A stretch of DNA of 63,270 nt. Source: Oceaniferula marina (lineage in GTDB: Bacteria > Verrucomicrobiota > Verrucomicrobiia > Verrucomicrobiales > Akkermansiaceae). Made by a program: the position numbers and the translations under genes. Position 1 is the first letter of the stretch; every line of letters starts with the position of its first letter. The notes under the pieces were generated by a model. That model saw only the letters and a list, made by a program, of their open reading frames with translations. It was not told where the DNA came from and made no database searches. This document shows positions 35,404 to 45,543 of this stretch, piece by piece. The DNA is taken from contig NZ_JACBAZ010000013.1 in assembly GCF_013391475.1 (NCBI RefSeq), forward strand, positions 1 to 63,270. Direction: 5' to 3'.

Positions 35404-36138
35404 TTAATTTCCTCGAAATCTCATTCGGTAGGATTTTGGCGTTTCTTTGATGAGTTTGGAAAACTCCCGGTTGAGATGGCTTTGATCTGAGAAGCCACAT
35501 TGTGCGGCGATGTTAGCCAAGGGGGCTGAACTCTGAACAATTTGGTGGCATGCTTCCTGAACGCGAATGTGGCGGAGATATTCTTTGGGAGTCATATGCA
35601 GTCGCTTTTTAAATTTTCGAGTAAAAGCACTTTCTGAAAGGTTGACCGCTTGAGCCAGCTCGCTGACGGGGAAGGTTTCAGCGTAGCGCTTCTGAATAAT
35701 GTTTAGTGCCGGTCCTAATTCCGAGTGGGCATCCAGACTACTTGTGCCGGTAGCAAATGGGCGGGTGACACCTGCGACTCCGCGGATTTTTCCGGAGTGG
35801 TCTCTGAGTGGCACTTTGGTGGTTGTGGACCAATCGACGAGACCTTTGCCTCGAGTGACTAATTCCACCTTGTTTAGAATGGTTTCACCGGTCTGAATCA
35901 CATGCAGGTCATCTTCCTTGTAAGCGGCAGCCAGAGTTTTTGGAAGCAGTTCGTCATCTGTTTTTCCCAAGGCGTCTTTAGCCTCCTTGAGACCCAGTTT
36001 GTTTGCCAGTCGTTGATTGAGTGAGACGATACGAAGCTGGGTGTCCTTTGCGAAATACAGGAATCCGGGCATACTGTCGAACAGGGATGCCTGGTGATCC
36101 CAGAGACCATACTTTTGAAAGAATTCGACATCATACAT
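35404..36138 (-). CDS. PAS-AraC family transcriptional regulator
   Basis: A 244-residue regulator with a PAS domain at residues 15-130 (FDSMPGFLYFAKDTQLRIVS, KTDDELLPK, GVAGVTRPF) and an AraC double helix-turn-helix at 140-240 (VSELAQAVNLSESAFTRKFK, then PLANIAAQCGFSDQSHLNRE and FSKLIKETPKSYR). PAS-AraC proteins of this type control sugar operons in Verrucomicrobiota and Planctomycetes. It lies 105 bp upstream of the isomerase operon on the same strand and probably activates it. The N-terminal two fifths plus upstream sequence are duplicated at 38485-39103. Confidence 0.9.
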   Translation of the reverse strand: MYDVEFFQKYGLWDHQASLFDSMPGFLYFAKDTQLRIVSLNQRLANKLGLKEAKDALGKTDDELLPKTLAAAYKEDDLHVIQTGETILNKVELVTRGKGLVDWSTTTKVPLRDHSGKIRGVAGVTRPFATGTSSLDAHSELGPALNIIQKRYAETFPVSELAQAVNLSESAFTRKFKKRLHMTPKEYLRHIRVQEACHQIVQSSAPLANIAAQCGFSDQSHLNREFSKLIKETPKSYRMRFRGN

Positions 36139-37574: not shown

Positions 37575-38234
37575 TTACTTACGACGGCGCAGTAAAAGAC
37601 TGATGCCCCCTAAAGAAATCAACGCTGCACTGGATGGCTCAGGAACAGCCGTAATGATGATTCCTGATACACTCGTGCGAGTTCCATTCGTGTTAGTTGG
37701 ATCGATATATAAAGTATCTACCGAATGGGCTCCTGCACTGGAAGAAGTAGAAAACTTAGTATCTCCAGTTGTCCCAATCGTTTCCAAGAGCAAGCCCGCA
37801 CTATTGGTCTCTCGGAGGAGGATATCGCCAAAGGTATTGCTTGCAGTGTCTGATCCTTGCATGATTTGGATCGTGTAACCTGTAGCACTATTAGCGGTAA
37901 GCCAAGCTCCTAGACCGGTGACCGTAAAGGCTGTAGCATTATCCACATAACTTTGGTGAATCGCTGTAGGAGCTCCTCCTCCTGACCATGCGCCACCTCC
38001 CCATGTAAAGGTAACCCCGTCTGTCGTGACCTGATCTATCCCTGATCCGCCTGCGTCGTTGTTCGCAAGGACATCCACCCATGTAGAAATTCCAAACTCG
38101 CTACCATCATTGAGCGCTGGTGCGTTTGTCACGGTTCTCATGAAGTTGACAGCTATTACGCTAGCGGCATTGGTTGTAGCAAGCATCACTGATGAGGATA
38201 GGGTTAGTGCTACGATCGTTTTACTTAGTTTCAT
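37575..38234 (-). CDS. PEP-CTERM sorted protein
   Basis: A 219-residue exported protein: signal peptide (IVALTLSSSVMLATTNAASV), a beta-rich Gly/Thr/Asn body with WGGGAWSGGGAPTAIHQSYV, and the sorting tail PEPSSAALISLGGISLLLRRR, truncated in the usual place by an Arg cluster. Related in type to 15039-15818 but not in body sequence. Function unknown; it would be handled by the same exosortase. It is monocistronic, with its own terminator, and converges with the regulator pseudogene. Confidence 0.85.
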   Translation of the reverse strand: MKLSKTIVALTLSSSVMLATTNAASVIAVNFMRTVTNAPALNDGSEFGISTWVDVLANNDAGGSGIDQVTTDGVTFTWGGGAWSGGGAPTAIHQSYVDNATAFTVTGLGAWLTANSATGYTIQIMQGSDTASNTFGDILLRETNSAGLLLETIGTTGDTKFSTSSSAGAHSVDTLYIDPTNTNGTRTSVSGIIITAVPEPSSAALISLGGISLLLRRRK

Positions 38235-38484: not shown

Positions 38485-39103
38485 GGATCGGAGGGGTTTT
38501 TCCGGAGGTGTCTCTGAGTGGTACTTTGGTGGTTGTGGACCAATCGACGAGACCTTTGCCTCGAGTGACTAATACCACTCCGCAAAACAGACGAGACGAT
38601 TGATCGTTGTTGAGGTATGTGGAAAAGCACTGCGTGATCCATGAGAGTTCCGGATGAATGACTCCTTTGGCTTTGTTTCTCCTTAGTCATGGTGCCCGCA
38701 CCATTCCTTCGTCGCACCTTACCAAAGAACTCATTCATCTCGGCTATCGTCCCGTCTGTTTTACTACTTGGTATAATTCCACCTTGTTCAGAATGGTTTC
38801 ACCGGTCTGAATCACATGCAGGTCATCTTCCTTGTAAGCGGCAGCCAGAGTTTTTGGAAGCAGTTCGTCATCTGTTTTTCCCAAGGCGTCTTTAGCCTCC
38901 TTGAGACCCAGTTTGTTTGCCAGTCGCTGATTGAGCGCGACGATACGAAGCTGGGTGTCCTTTGCGAAATACAGAAATCCGGGCATACTGTCGAACAGGG
39001 ATGCCTGGTGATTCCAGAGACCATACTTTTGAAAGAATTCGACATCATACATTGCTCGGCTACCCTAGCTGCTCGCTGGGGGAGCACCATCTAAAATGTC
39101 GGC
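38485..39103 (-). pseudogene. Partial duplicate of the PAS-AraC regulator, split by a repeat
   Basis: Sequence 38485-38569 plus 38777-39103 matches 35775-36190: the upstream region, start codon and PAS domain of the PAS-AraC gene. The AraC domain is missing. The copy is interrupted by repeat copy B at the TAA of GAGTGACTAATTCC. The open part (38744-39052) would encode about 95 residues of PAS domain only. Only scattered point differences from the parent are visible, so the duplication is fairly recent. Confidence 0.88.
38573..38773 (+). repeat. 201-bp fold-back repeat, copy B (complete)
   Basis: Exactly the length of copy A, with the same ends and a TAA flank on both sides (38570-38572, 38774-38776). 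The intact gene at 35860-35862 has a single TAA at the same place, which shows insertion with a 3-bp target duplication. The central hairpin ATGGTGC-CC-GCACCAT is at 38689-38704. The arms differ from copy A but still pair: GATGAATGACTCCTTTGG / CCAAAGAACTCATTCATC. Confidence 0.9.
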
Positions 39104-39845
39104 TCATTTTTAGATGCTCGCTTTGGGGTGATTGAAAAACGCATGTCATGAGGTGGTGAGACTCCTGGGGCTCGTCAGCGGCCCTCTTCATGACCCCTGT
39201 ATCATCAAGACTTTCAGTTGGCGTAAAAATTTATATGCCCATGAAATATGGGATGATCTCGCGTGTTCTGCTCTTCAGAGCGGGCGGGAATGAAAATTTT
39301 TGAAAATTCTGAGGAGGGAGCTGGCAGATCTGGTCGATCGTATTTTTTTTTGCCCCCGCCTTGGGTGCCACTCTAACGGCAAGCGCTTGGTTAGCTGACA
39401 TCGGGAAGCGGTGGTTTTCCTAGGATTTGTCGTGTCGCAAGTAAAAAATGGCAAGGAGTGCCTGGGTTCTTGAAACCTCAAAAACCACAACATGTTGTAT
39501 TGTGAATAATTTGTGGATACCATATGAGCAAAATGAAATTGACGAGAATGGGTTTGTCAGGGCATGATGATGAGGTTGCGCGGTGACTGGATCCCAATCC
39601 TCTCAGGCTGCAAAACAATCAAGAAACCCTTTTTATCAAGCGCCTGCCTTCACCCACTCATCTTTTGCCACTCACCCCCTCCTAAAGCTCTCTGCAAGCC
39701 CCCAATCTGAGTCTTTCTCCTTATGGACTCAGCACAAACTTTCCCTCATCCCCTCAAGTTCTCTCATTTCCCTCCGATTCACCCTTTCATGCGTGCCTTA
39801 TGGCGCGAGTATTTTTTCACCCTTACCGACTGCTGCATACGACCC
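39104..39845. other. Non-coding region upstream of the ribonucleotide reductase operon
   Basis: About 740 bp with no credible gene. It contains a perfect palindrome ACAACATGTTGT (39487-39498) lying inside a wider CCACAA (39485) ... TTGTGG (39511) arrangement. It is a candidate regulatory site for the nrd genes, though it does not match the usual NrdR box. In-frame ATGs at 39723 and later precede the chosen nrdB start but give an unlikely leader. Confidence 0.45.
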
Positions 39846-40904
39846 ATGGCCGACACCATTACCATCACCCTTGGAGACCGCTCCTTTGAACTCGACCGAG
39901 AAAAAGCTGAAGAGGCCTACTCGGCTAAAAAAGTTATCAATGGCCGCAAATCCATGTTTTTCAATATCCTGCCTTTGAAATACCAGTGGGCGTATGATCT
40001 CTACAAGGAGATGAAAAACGAACATTGGGAGCCTGCGGAAACCACCCTTCGGGATGACCTGGCCCAGTGGTCGAGGCTGGATGAGTCGAGTCAGTCGTTT
40101 GTGAAGTTGGCATTGGGCGCGTTTGCGCGGGCACAGGAGATTTTTCATTCTGATGAGATCTACACGGTGCGCGACTTGCTGACGGCTCCGGAGCTCAAGC
40201 TGGTATTCGGTCGTTTTGTGCATGAAGAAAACACGCGCAATGACGTGCTGGTGTATTTGCATGGTGCGTTGTCGATTAATCCGATGGAGTGTGGAGTCAT
40301 GGCCTCAAAGGAGGTGATCAATGCCAAGGCTGCGTTTATGGATTCCAGGCTCAGCCCGGTTGACCGGAATACCGACACCACGGTGACCGAGAATAAGCAG
40401 GCGATTGTGCGCAATATTTTTCTGATCAACCAGTGCATGGAAGGCACGCAGTTCTACAGCATCTGGGCCGGGATTTTCTCGCTGGCGATGCAGAACAAGC
40501 TGCCGGGCAAGGGGCGAATTCTCAGCTATCTGCTGCGTGACGTGGCATTCCGGATTCGTTTGTTTGACAAGCTAATCAAGGAGATGGTCGAAGAAAACCC
40601 GGACCTTTGGACTGCGGAGTTTAAGGATGAGTTGGCCGCGCATATGAAGGATGCCGTCAAACTCGAGCAAGAGTTGATTGCCAGTCTGCCGATCTCGGAG
40701 GTTGGGCTGGATGCCGATGTCTTGGGCGTTTACATCGAATACCTTGCCGACGAGCGTCTGGCAGCATGCGGATTGGCCCGTCAATATTTCCATTCACGCA
40801 GCCCTTACCCGTGGCTTGATGAGCAGATTCATTTGGCCTCAGCCCATGAAGGTCACAGTAGCACGGCTACGCTCGACACTTCGTTTGAAGATGATGACCT
40901 CTAA
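39846..40904 (+). CDS. Metal-ligand-deficient ribonucleotide reductase beta-like subunit
   Basis: 352 residues from ATG 39846 (MADTITITLGDRSFELDREK); the longer frame from 39723 adds an unconserved leader. The fold is clearly NrdB and it is closely related to the next gene. Compared with E. coli R2 ligands D84, E115, H118, E204, E238 and H241, this protein keeps D71, E128 and E199 but has Arg131 (HEENTRND), Val233 and Arg236 (LLRDVAFRIRLF). The radical Tyr position is Leu135. The tail EGHSSTATLDTSFEDDDL lacks the radical-transfer Tyr. It should not assemble a di-metal site. The intact frame and conserved fold argue for a retained structural or chaperone role, like yeast Rnr4. Confidence 0.85.
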   Translation: MADTITITLGDRSFELDREKAEEAYSAKKVINGRKSMFFNILPLKYQWAYDLYKEMKNEHWEPAETTLRDDLAQWSRLDESSQSFVKLALGAFARAQEIFHSDEIYTVRDLLTAPELKLVFGRFVHEENTRNDVLVYLHGALSINPMECGVMASKEVINAKAAFMDSRLSPVDRNTDTTVTENKQAIVRNIFLINQCMEGTQFYSIWAGIFSLAMQNKLPGKGRILSYLLRDVAFRIRLFDKLIKEMVEENPDLWTAEFKDELAAHMKDAVKLEQELIASLPISEVGLDADVLGVYIEYLADERLAACGLARQYFHSRSPYPWLDEQIHLASAHEGHSSTATLDTSFEDDDL

Positions 40905-40988
40905 ACCCCCTCGCATGGGTTTGATCGAAACCCGTTTACTTTTTACACGCCAGTACAAGGACACTGACAACCACTCACTTTCACCGCT

Positions 40989-42068
40989 ATGACCACCGCA
41001 CAACTCGATGATTTTACTATTCCGCTTGATTCGGAAAAGGCCGCCAAGATTCTGGAATCCAAGAGAGTCATTGGAGGCAGCCGGCCCAGTGGCTTTGGTT
41101 TGCTCCCGTTGAAATACCAGTGGGCCTGGGACATTTATACCGATATGCGCTCGAACCATTGGGAGCCAGAGGACATTCCGATGCAGAAAGACGTGGAGCA
41201 GTGGCGCAGCAATGAGATCAGCGATGTGGAGCGGTGGATCATCAAGATGGGGATTGGTTATTTTTCGGCTGCTGAAGGGATTGTTGGCGATAACATTATT
41301 CACGTGATCCGGGATCAGGTGACGGCTCCCGAGTTGGAACTGGTCTTCCGCCGCCATGCTCATGAAGAAAATATTCATGCCGATTCGTTGGTGTATATGG
41401 TGAGTTCACTCGGCTTAAATCCGCATGAATGTGAAGCGATTTTCGAAGGGGTGCGCACGGTTCAGGAAAAAACCGACTTTGTGGTGTCGAACTCGCGCTC
41501 TCTGCGGCGCGATATGGATATGTCTCTAACTGAAAATAAACAGGCGCTGGCACGCAACGCCTTTATCTTCGGTCAGTGTATGGAGGGGACTCAGTTTTAC
41601 GGCTTGTTCGGAATGATTCTCAGTCTGTATCGCCAGAACAAGTTTCCTGGAATTGGTCAGATGTTCCGCTACACCCTGCGTGATGAGAGCAACCACATTG
41701 AGTTGCTGCGCAATTTGCTGATGGATCTGGCTACTGAGAACCCGGAGATCTGGACAGATGACTTCAAAGAGGAACTCCGCCAGACGATGGCCGAGGCGAT
41801 CAAGCTCGAAAAAAACTTCATTCGCGATTGCCTGCCGGTGTCTGCGGTTGGATTGAATCTGGAGGACTTCCATCAGTATATTGATTACATCGCGGATCGT
41901 CGCCTTGAAAGTTGCGGATTGGCCCCCTTGAAAGGTGATATTCAAAACCCATTCCCCTGGTTGGCCGAAATGATCGACATCAAGAAGGAGCAAAACTTCT
42001 TTGAAGGTCGGGTCACTGAATACCAGAAATCCACAGCTCTTGGAAACATCGATGACGATGAGCTCTAA
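40989..42068 (+). CDS. nrdB: Class Ic-like ribonucleotide reductase beta subunit
   Basis: A 359-residue R2 subunit with all six metal ligands: D68 (MQKDVEQW), E127 and H130 (HEENIHADS), E199 (QCMEGTQFY), E233 and H236 (RDESNHIELL). The tyrosyl-radical position (H130 plus four) is Leu134, giving HADSLVY where Chlamydia R2c has a Phe. Loss of the Tyr is the mark of class Ic proteins, which use a Mn(IV)/Fe(III) cofactor in place of a tyrosyl radical. The tail keeps a Tyr (GRVTEYQKS) for radical transfer and ends in acidic IDDDEL for binding NrdA. It lies 84 bp after the ligand-deficient paralogue and 147 bp before nrdA. Confidence 0.93.
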   Translation: MTTAQLDDFTIPLDSEKAAKILESKRVIGGSRPSGFGLLPLKYQWAWDIYTDMRSNHWEPEDIPMQKDVEQWRSNEISDVERWIIKMGIGYFSAAEGIVGDNIIHVIRDQVTAPELELVFRRHAHEENIHADSLVYMVSSLGLNPHECEAIFEGVRTVQEKTDFVVSNSRSLRRDMDMSLTENKQALARNAFIFGQCMEGTQFYGLFGMILSLYRQNKFPGIGQMFRYTLRDESNHIELLRNLLMDLATENPEIWTDDFKEELRQTMAEAIKLEKNFIRDCLPVSAVGLNLEDFHQYIDYIADRRLESCGLAPLKGDIQNPFPWLAEMIDIKKEQNFFEGRVTEYQKSTALGNIDDDEL

Positions 42069-45476: not shown

Positions 45477-45508
45477 CCGAGGTCTTCAATCTAGCAGAAA
45501 AAAATCAG

Positions 45509-45543
45509 GCCCTCTTTCTCCGAGTGAGAAGGAGGGCTTTTTT
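45509..45543 (+). terminator. Terminator of the nrd operon
   Basis: GCCCTCTTTCT (45509-45519) pairs with AGAAGGAGGGC (45527-45537), with one G-U pair, and is followed by TTTTTT. Confidence 0.9.

Follow-up and report, generated by a model that had tools for sequence, protein, structure and literature searches.

Adjacent NrdB paralogues in Oceaniferula marina and the case for a heterodimeric bacterial radical subunit of class I ribonucleotide reductase

In the class I ribonucleotide reductase (RNR) of yeast, the radical subunit (R2) is active as a beta-beta' form, Rnr2-Rnr4, in which one R2 is without the metal-ligating residues (PMC3267527; PMC3824934; PMC6754362). A related arrangement is found in bacterial DNA from Oceaniferula marina (assembly GCF_013391475.1, contig NZ_JACBAZ010000013.1; the whole stretch analysed, 63,270 nt, is called the window, and its source genome is 97% complete), where two neighbouring genes for NrdB, the bacterial R2, precede nrdA, the gene for the catalytic subunit alpha. 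The first gene is called beta' here and the second beta. As in yeast, an R2 with a complete metal site stands beside a ligand-deficient paralogue, but here the proteins are bacterial class Ic-like NrdBs whose radical position is occupied by Leu, the ligand loss is fourfold, as a Q/R/V/R set, and the genes adjoin each other and nrdA. In its predicted fold, beta' shares with Rnr4-type subunits a full-length R2 fold with lost ligands. The N-terminus of Rnr4-type beta' is described as shorter than that of the active partner (PMC3824934), whereas beta' has 352 residues against 359 in beta and its N-terminal segment is present. Altogether, these genes probably encode an obligate beta-beta' heterodimer as the radical subunit of a class I RNR, like Rnr2-Rnr4.

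Other described R2 proteins resemble the pair only in part. The solved structure nearest to both proteins is the class Ic NrdB (R2c) of C. trachomatis (Ct), a protein that works as a homodimer; it has the ligand set of beta and no radical-site Tyr, but differs from beta' in having all six ligands and from beta in having Phe127 in place of Leu134. Class Ie R2 proteins, which are metal-free, have lost acidic metal ligands and keep a modified Tyr and the His ligands, whereas beta' has Leu at the Tyr position and Arg at the His ligand positions. In apicomplexans, R2_e2 (PfR4) is a divergent second R2 with intact reading frames beside a standard R2, and is said to be without the radical-forming Tyr; it belongs to a eukaryotic clade, and the same study found no substitutions that tie in with functional divergence between the clades (PMC3824934). 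A non-functional bacterial form of NrdB, for which a heterodimer has been speculated, is encoded by the short nrdB of Candidatus Liberibacter asiaticus, but its 125-aa product matches the 3' end of the long form at over 99% identity and is not a full-length diverged protein (PMC5154197). A bacterial full-length heterodimeric R2 was not found in a literature search, which left out most subscription papers.

The genes for beta' and beta are same-strand neighbours, their products are 42% identical, and both exceed the PF00268 cut-off of 33.6 bits (beta at 227.4 bits), which bears out the view of an initial annotation of this DNA that they are adjacent R2 paralogues (Table 1). They are the only PF00268 matches in the genome. 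The top Protein Data Bank match of beta is 1syy (268.9 bits), and nrdA scores 1228.1 bits against NF005544 (cut-off 965). With 180 bits, beta' falls under the NF005550 cut-off, yet it is clearly an R2. Its start codon was set by homology, and a longer open frame starts at 39723.

Table 1. Features of the nrd region, in window coordinates
Feature	Position	Strand	Basis
beta' gene, NrdB paralogue, 352 aa	39846..40904	+	PF00268 148.6 bits; Ct R2c alignment; AlphaFold
N-terminal segment of beta' (residues 1-63), 33/40 conserved columns kept, 1 lost	39846..40034	+	column comparison
Q97 in beta', first Glu ligand replaced (Ct E89; beta E96)	40134..40136	+	alignment
E128 in beta', ligand position retained (Ct E120)	40227..40229	+	alignment
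R131 in beta', His ligand replaced (Ct H123)	40236..40238	+	alignment
E199 in beta', ligand position retained (Ct E193)	40440..40442	+	alignment
V233 in beta', Glu ligand replaced (Ct E227)	40542..40544	+	alignment
R236 in beta', His ligand replaced (Ct H230)	40551..40553	+	alignment
Acidic C-terminal tail of beta', EDDDL (cf. DDDEL in beta)	40887..40901	+	sequence, alignment
beta'-beta spacer, 84 bases, small hairpin inside	40905..40988	+	hairpin not conserved in relatives
beta gene, class Ic-like NrdB, 359 aa	40989..42068	+	NF005550 332.4 bits (cut-off 309)
N-terminal segment of beta (residues 1-60), 21/40 conserved columns kept, 14 lost	40989..41168	+	column comparison
Helix C start of beta, K117E and G121R vs lone NrdBs	41337..41351	+	column comparison
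Y345 in beta, tail radical-transfer Tyr position (Ct Y338), missing from beta'	42021..42023	+	alignment
nrdA, catalytic subunit alpha with ATP-cone, 1086 aa	42216..45476	+	PF02867 624.8 bits, PF03477 81.5 bits
Terminator-like hairpin 3' of nrdA, possible operon end	45507..45539	+	consensus match only

Read from an alignment to Ct R2c, all six metal ligands are present in beta (E96, E127, H130, E199, E233 and H236), and its radical position is occupied by Leu134. Beta thus has the six ligands and the non-Tyr radical position that class Ic requires, the residue being Leu and not Phe. At the same positions beta' has Q97, E128, R131, E199, V233 and R236, with Leu135 at the radical position; four ligands are lost (E>Q97, H>R131, E>V233, H>R236), and the two that are kept, E128 and E199, fall short of the class Ic set. 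The initial annotation had rightly given the second gene a full set with Leu134, but had named D68 as its first ligand, and it had counted three losses in the first gene, where D71 was taken as the retained first ligand. Both Asp residues are conserved in the two genes but align with no ligand, the position in question being that of Ct E89, and the first ligand of beta' is thus Q97 and the loss fourfold. The three replacements that had been reported (H>R131, E>V233, H>R236) and the two retained Glu residues were recovered on the Ct R2c alignment. The E>V change had also been likened to class Ie. This comparison fails, and class Ie identity was ruled out for beta', as it has neither a Tyr at the radical position nor His ligands.

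The same positions were surveyed in 15 beta' rows, 13 paired beta rows and 97 rows from single-NrdB loci. The full six-ligand set is present in 97/97 single-NrdB-locus rows and in 13/13 paired beta rows, and the radical position is Leu in every beta' row and every paired beta row. In the beta' rows, the Ct E89 position is Q (13/15) or G (2/15), the E120 position E (13/15) or Q (2/15, both Rubritalea-type, with five of six ligands lost), the H123 position R (13/15) or Q (2/15), and the E227 position V (8), I (4), A (2) or T (1), while E at E193 and R at H230 are found in all 15. Of the R/V/R set pointed out earlier, the two Arg residues are kept in 13/15 and 15/15 rows, and Val in 8/15. Both His ligands are gone in all 15. 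The Ct Y222 position is K in 13 rows, S in one and Y in the window gene; W51 and D226 are retained throughout. The tail ends in DDL in 14 rows and EDL in one, with a Tyr within the last 25 residues in none of the 15, which agrees with the earlier remark that the tail Tyr is missing from the first gene. Two fixed Arg residues opposite two Glu residues (13/15) suggest a salt-bridge core that replaces the metals.

With a beta'-grade match defined as at least 502 bits (the next best match, of lone type, scores 430), beta' is present in 15 of the 244 genomes of the family. These are 12 of the 14 genomes of the window's own genus (Akkermansiaceae; one member is titled UBA985), Persicirhabdus sediminis KCTC 22039 (G026), Rubritalea profundi (G451) and G043, a second Rubritalea-type genome, which shares a genus handle with G451. 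The two genus genomes without it are G001, where only the end of beta is seen at a contig end, and G011, which has no match. The order beta'-beta is kept at 14/14 mapped loci and is followed by nrdA in 13, the contig of the 14th (G007) stopping within beta. Elsewhere in the family, matches are absent from 74/244 genomes and mostly single in the remainder; G025 and G040 carry ordinary additional copies, and an apparent chimeric beta'-beta gene in G040 was ruled out as an ordinary beta containing a run of N. In trees, which contained no eukaryotic R2, beta' forms a single clade (100/100), as does paired beta (100/99); the junction of beta' with the lone genes is uncertain owing to its long stem. 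Its identity is 42-49% to lone NrdBs and 28-29% to Ct NrdB. Partial or weak matches to the beta' profile were seen in G499 and in genus g3, where several genomes have one or two (E 1e-8 to 1e-17) and others none. A search for beta' in viruses matched 32 stretches, two of which encode relatives, 25% identical.

Selection on beta' was estimated by pairwise codon maximum likelihood in the three closest pairs (G003, G005, G010); more distant pairs, including those with the window gene, had high or saturated synonymous divergence and were disregarded. The ratio of nonsynonymous to synonymous substitution rates (omega) is 0.110, 0.090 and 0.072 for beta' (likelihood-ratio statistics against omega = 1 of 66.5, 76.6 and 18.7) and 0.011, 0.011 and 0.048 for beta in the same pairs. 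Beta' is thus constrained by purifying selection, less than beta, and within the genus it shares 65.9-71.2% identity with beta' of the window, against 86.5-93.3% for beta. All 15 reading frames of beta' are open, without internal stops. A dN/dS check of the first gene had been proposed at the outset, with relaxed selection or broken frames named as signs against a working partner; neither was found, and a pseudogene is ruled out.

AlphaFold models of the monomers give beta' the R2 fold (mean predicted local distance difference test score, pLDDT, 87.7; predicted template modelling score 0.85; tail residues 334-352 disordered), and the model of beta has a mean pLDDT of 82.6. A Foldseek search with beta' returned Ct NrdB first (template modelling score 0.79) and yeast Rnr4 (1sms) 44th. 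The dimer interface of L. blandensis NrdB is described as a bundle of helices B and C, with V173 of helix B contacting L113 and P187 of the opposite monomer in the metal-loaded form and E237 of helix D bonding K109 of the opposite monomer in the apo form (PMC6754362). Residue 36 of beta aligns to index 114 of the L. blandensis chain, which places the equivalents of L113 and K109 at about beta' 36-41, in approximate register. This segment reads MFFNI in beta' and SGFGL in beta.

A new observation, made at the level of sequence, is that the paired genes divide between them what lone NrdBs conserve. With the 97 single-NrdB rows as reference, 240 columns are at least 90% conserved, and each was scored as kept or lost at 50%; paired beta has lost 24/240, beta' 71/240, and both have lost 4. 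The losses of beta include 14 of the 40 columns of the N-terminal segment and two at the start of helix C (Table 1), where beta' retains K118 and G122, like lone NrdBs. In helix B (81-111 in beta' numbering; 24 columns), beta kept 21 and lost 1, and beta' kept 2 and lost 13. Losses confined to one partner fall in the N-terminal segment and elsewhere in the numbers 12/4 for beta and 0/66 for beta' (Fisher P=2.2e-11), or 7/3 and 0/57 when 18 non-redundant rows are used (P=1.4e-7). Within beta' itself, the N-terminal segment (33 kept, 1 lost) differs from the rest (61 kept, 70 lost; P=1e-8). As a control, seven other sets of lone NrdBs gave N-terminal odds ratios of 0.75-2.67, none significant; the ratio was 10.2 in paired beta and 0.05 in beta'. 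The division favours a heterodimer, in which the arm and the helix B that meet would be alike: both unchanged where beta' supplies the arm and beta the helix, and both changed where beta supplies the arm and beta' the helix. In a homodimer of beta, a changed arm would meet an unchanged helix B.

Tandem nrdB genes were also met in two other families, and the tests on them came later. In genus g100, 2/9 genomes have a tandem in the order A-B-nrdA (L152, 4219-6532; L153), in which the diverged partner, B, has an altered helix B and N at Y222; the pair is possibly an early stage of heterodimer evolution. Compared with four lone genes of that genus, changes in the N-terminal segment and elsewhere number 11/17 for A only and 6/89 for B only (P=6.9e-5). 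In genus g17, beta' followed by beta was found in 2/33 genomes, G597 (L211, 1-2050) and G086 (L050, 650-3480). Beta' has kept its acidic tail, and an ordinary nrdB lies on a separate contig. In G086 the diverged partner ends in DDEL, while a DDDL tail is missing from the intact-site gene; no nrdA match was seen in the about 650 bases that follow the pair before the contig ends, and apparent breaks in the two genes coincide with runs of N and were rejected as real. Set against nine lone genes, changes in G597 number 17/6 for the intact-site gene only and 7/82 for the diverged gene only (P=4.2e-10).

In 177 common columns, overlapping changes are seen among the intact-site partners of the three lineages (P=9e-4, 2.5e-5 and 0.006) and among the diverged partners (P=5e-4, 1.4e-4 and 4e-8), and none of the nine comparisons of unlike roles shows overlap (P 0.32-0.98); the first two lineages gave the same like-with-like pattern on 238 columns. 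Columns 38, 40, 118 and 178 are altered in all three intact-site partners. The N-termini of the diverged partners resemble those of the lone genes of their own groups (MFFNIL, TMTFNLL and SEAFNLL), which favours separate duplications. Three changes are needed on the tree, two of them forced by well-supported branches; beta' of G597 sits on a very long branch, and its placement is unsure. A heterodimeric R2 thus appears, from these comparisons, to have arisen more than once in these Verrucomicrobia. The fuller proposal is evenly balanced in our judgement: obligate heterodimeric radical subunits would have at least two, and probably three, origins in the class Ic-type RNRs of Verrucomicrobiota, with the same division of labour, an arm acting in trans on the partner's metal site and a fixed half-of-sites form. 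One copy would keep helix B and the metal site and change its N-terminal arm and helix C start; the other would keep the arm and helix C start better and lose helix B and, in two of the three cases, ligands.

A heterodimer is the best-supported reading of the window pair because of the conserved ligand loss, the purifying selection, the fixed beta'-beta-nrdA order, the retention of the predicted fold and tail, and the complementary divergence at what is the dimer interface in a related NrdB. The Rnr4-like partner proposed in the initial annotation survives in this form, corrected in its ligand count and its class Ie detail. In such an enzyme, the metal site, of class Ic type and probably Mn/Fe, would lie in beta, as would the path by which the radical reaches NrdA. 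Beta' would be a structural half with no cofactor and no tail Tyr, in which R131 and R236, set against E128 and E199, probably hold the cavity. The N-terminal segment of beta' may pack on the intact helix B of beta, beside the metal site, and would keep its ancestral sequence for that reason; the change in that of beta would follow from its packing on helix B of beta', which is degenerate. The tails of both may bind NrdA, and as only beta could pass the radical, the sequence itself would impose half-of-sites behaviour.

Several points weigh against these interpretations. A first test of complementarity, over all columns and without regions, gave an odds ratio of 1.5 (P=0.42); the regions were chosen after the loss list had been viewed, so that the regional P values are post hoc, and the Fisher and hypergeometric tests count neighbouring columns as independent. 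The N-terminal change in beta may in part reflect a general tolerance, given the odds ratios seen in lone NrdBs. The structure predictions are of monomers, and the contact residues were taken from a homologue of class Id, with alignment coordinates only to place them. In Rubritalea profundi, beta has an apparent frameshift right after the first metal ligand (L089, about 6430), a sequencing error or real, and the adjoining beta' is open. Both g100 proteins keep six ligands, the diverged B included. The g17 beta' has G, G and K at the Ct E89, H123 and E193 positions but keeps those of E120 and E227, and at H230 it has His in G597 (three ligands lost) and Q in G086 (four lost). The g17 test comes from one genome, G597, which is 53% complete and has an intact-site gene cut at 302 residues. 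When all lone rows serve as reference, the split is weak in both lineages: odds ratios are 2.84 for A (P 0.02) and 0.51 for B (P 0.1) in g100, and 1.51 for the truncated intact-site gene (P 0.3) and 0.38 for the diverged gene (P 0.008) in g17. The diverged partners are also changed N-terminally, at 12/57 columns in g100 and 15/46 in g17, and the overlap among them could be shared relaxation.

Other roles for beta' can be considered. As a regulatory decoy, a beta' homodimer would compete for NrdA through its acidic tail and reduce activity, and the presence of DDL or EDL in 15/15 beta' while ligands and tail Tyr are lost fits such a role. This is unlikely: the changes of beta at the N-terminal segment and helix C start, both kept in beta', are left unexplained, as are the overlapping changed columns of other lineages, and first place in the operon would be odd for an inhibitor. 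A folding or chaperone role has been stated for yeast Rnr4 (PMC3267527; PMC3824934), and beta' might likewise bind beta during maturation only, as a cofactor-assembly or folding helper outside the active enzyme. Interface conservation would fit transient binding equally well, but a pure chaperone would hardly need the acidic tail that beta' retains, and we regard this role, too, as improbable.

That beta and beta' form separate homodimers, the latter with an unrelated function, is very unlikely in view of the constant linkage of beta' to beta and nrdA and of the complementary divergence, although the predicted R2 fold of beta' is intact and the genome has other reductases. These are a B12-dependent class II enzyme (NrdJ) and a class III enzyme (NrdD), on contigs C12 and C3 (L186, L187), so that all three classes are present and the essentiality of a beta'-beta-NrdA enzyme cannot be assumed. 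It could finally be argued that beta' is a decaying duplicate, since it evolves faster than beta, and that the N-terminal pattern only shows where an active NrdB tolerates change best, as some sets of lone NrdBs vary slightly more in these columns (odds ratios of at most 2.67, not significant). This is hardly credible with omega well under 1 and open frames in 15/15 beta': the genes are intact, conserved and under purifying selection, which decay should not leave, and the retention of the N-terminal segment amid losses at other conserved sites is the opposite of uniform decay.

Half-of-sites behaviour has been reported in several class I RNR subclasses (PMC8463856), and the influence of the NrdB dimer has been called not fully understood (PMC6754362). 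If the heterodimer is real, a bacterial RNR with one cofactor-less half separates the structural from the catalytic half within one operon, and the asymmetry of class I RNRs becomes testable by genetics; Persicirhabdus sediminis KCTC 22039 is a named strain that carries such an operon. A repeated origin with overlapping changed sites, if true, would moreover mark R2 contacts that act across the dimer.

Around the nrd genes, a conserved hairpin in the beta'-beta spacer was ruled out, as spacer length and structure vary over the 14 loci. The spacers of L006, L041 and L044 are filled by long, species-specific inverted repeats with predicted energies of about -27 to -37.5, which may be mobile palindromes. 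Terminator-like consensus sites number 13 in the region against 7.5 expected. An NrdR box was unconvincing, with 14 matches in the window at up to three mismatches against 10.9 expected; one palindromic match, with three mismatches, lies 5' of beta' at 39485-39500. On the minus strand, 35404-36138 encodes a PAS and AraC-type regulator (PF08448, PF12833), of which a shortened, near-identical copy stands just upstream of the nrd operon (38744-39094, minus strand; a 102-aa frame that diverges after about 95 residues). Between them, 37575-38234 (minus strand) encodes a small, secreted-looking protein with no Pfam match at 1e-5, whose C-terminal end resembles PEP-CTERM sorting signals.

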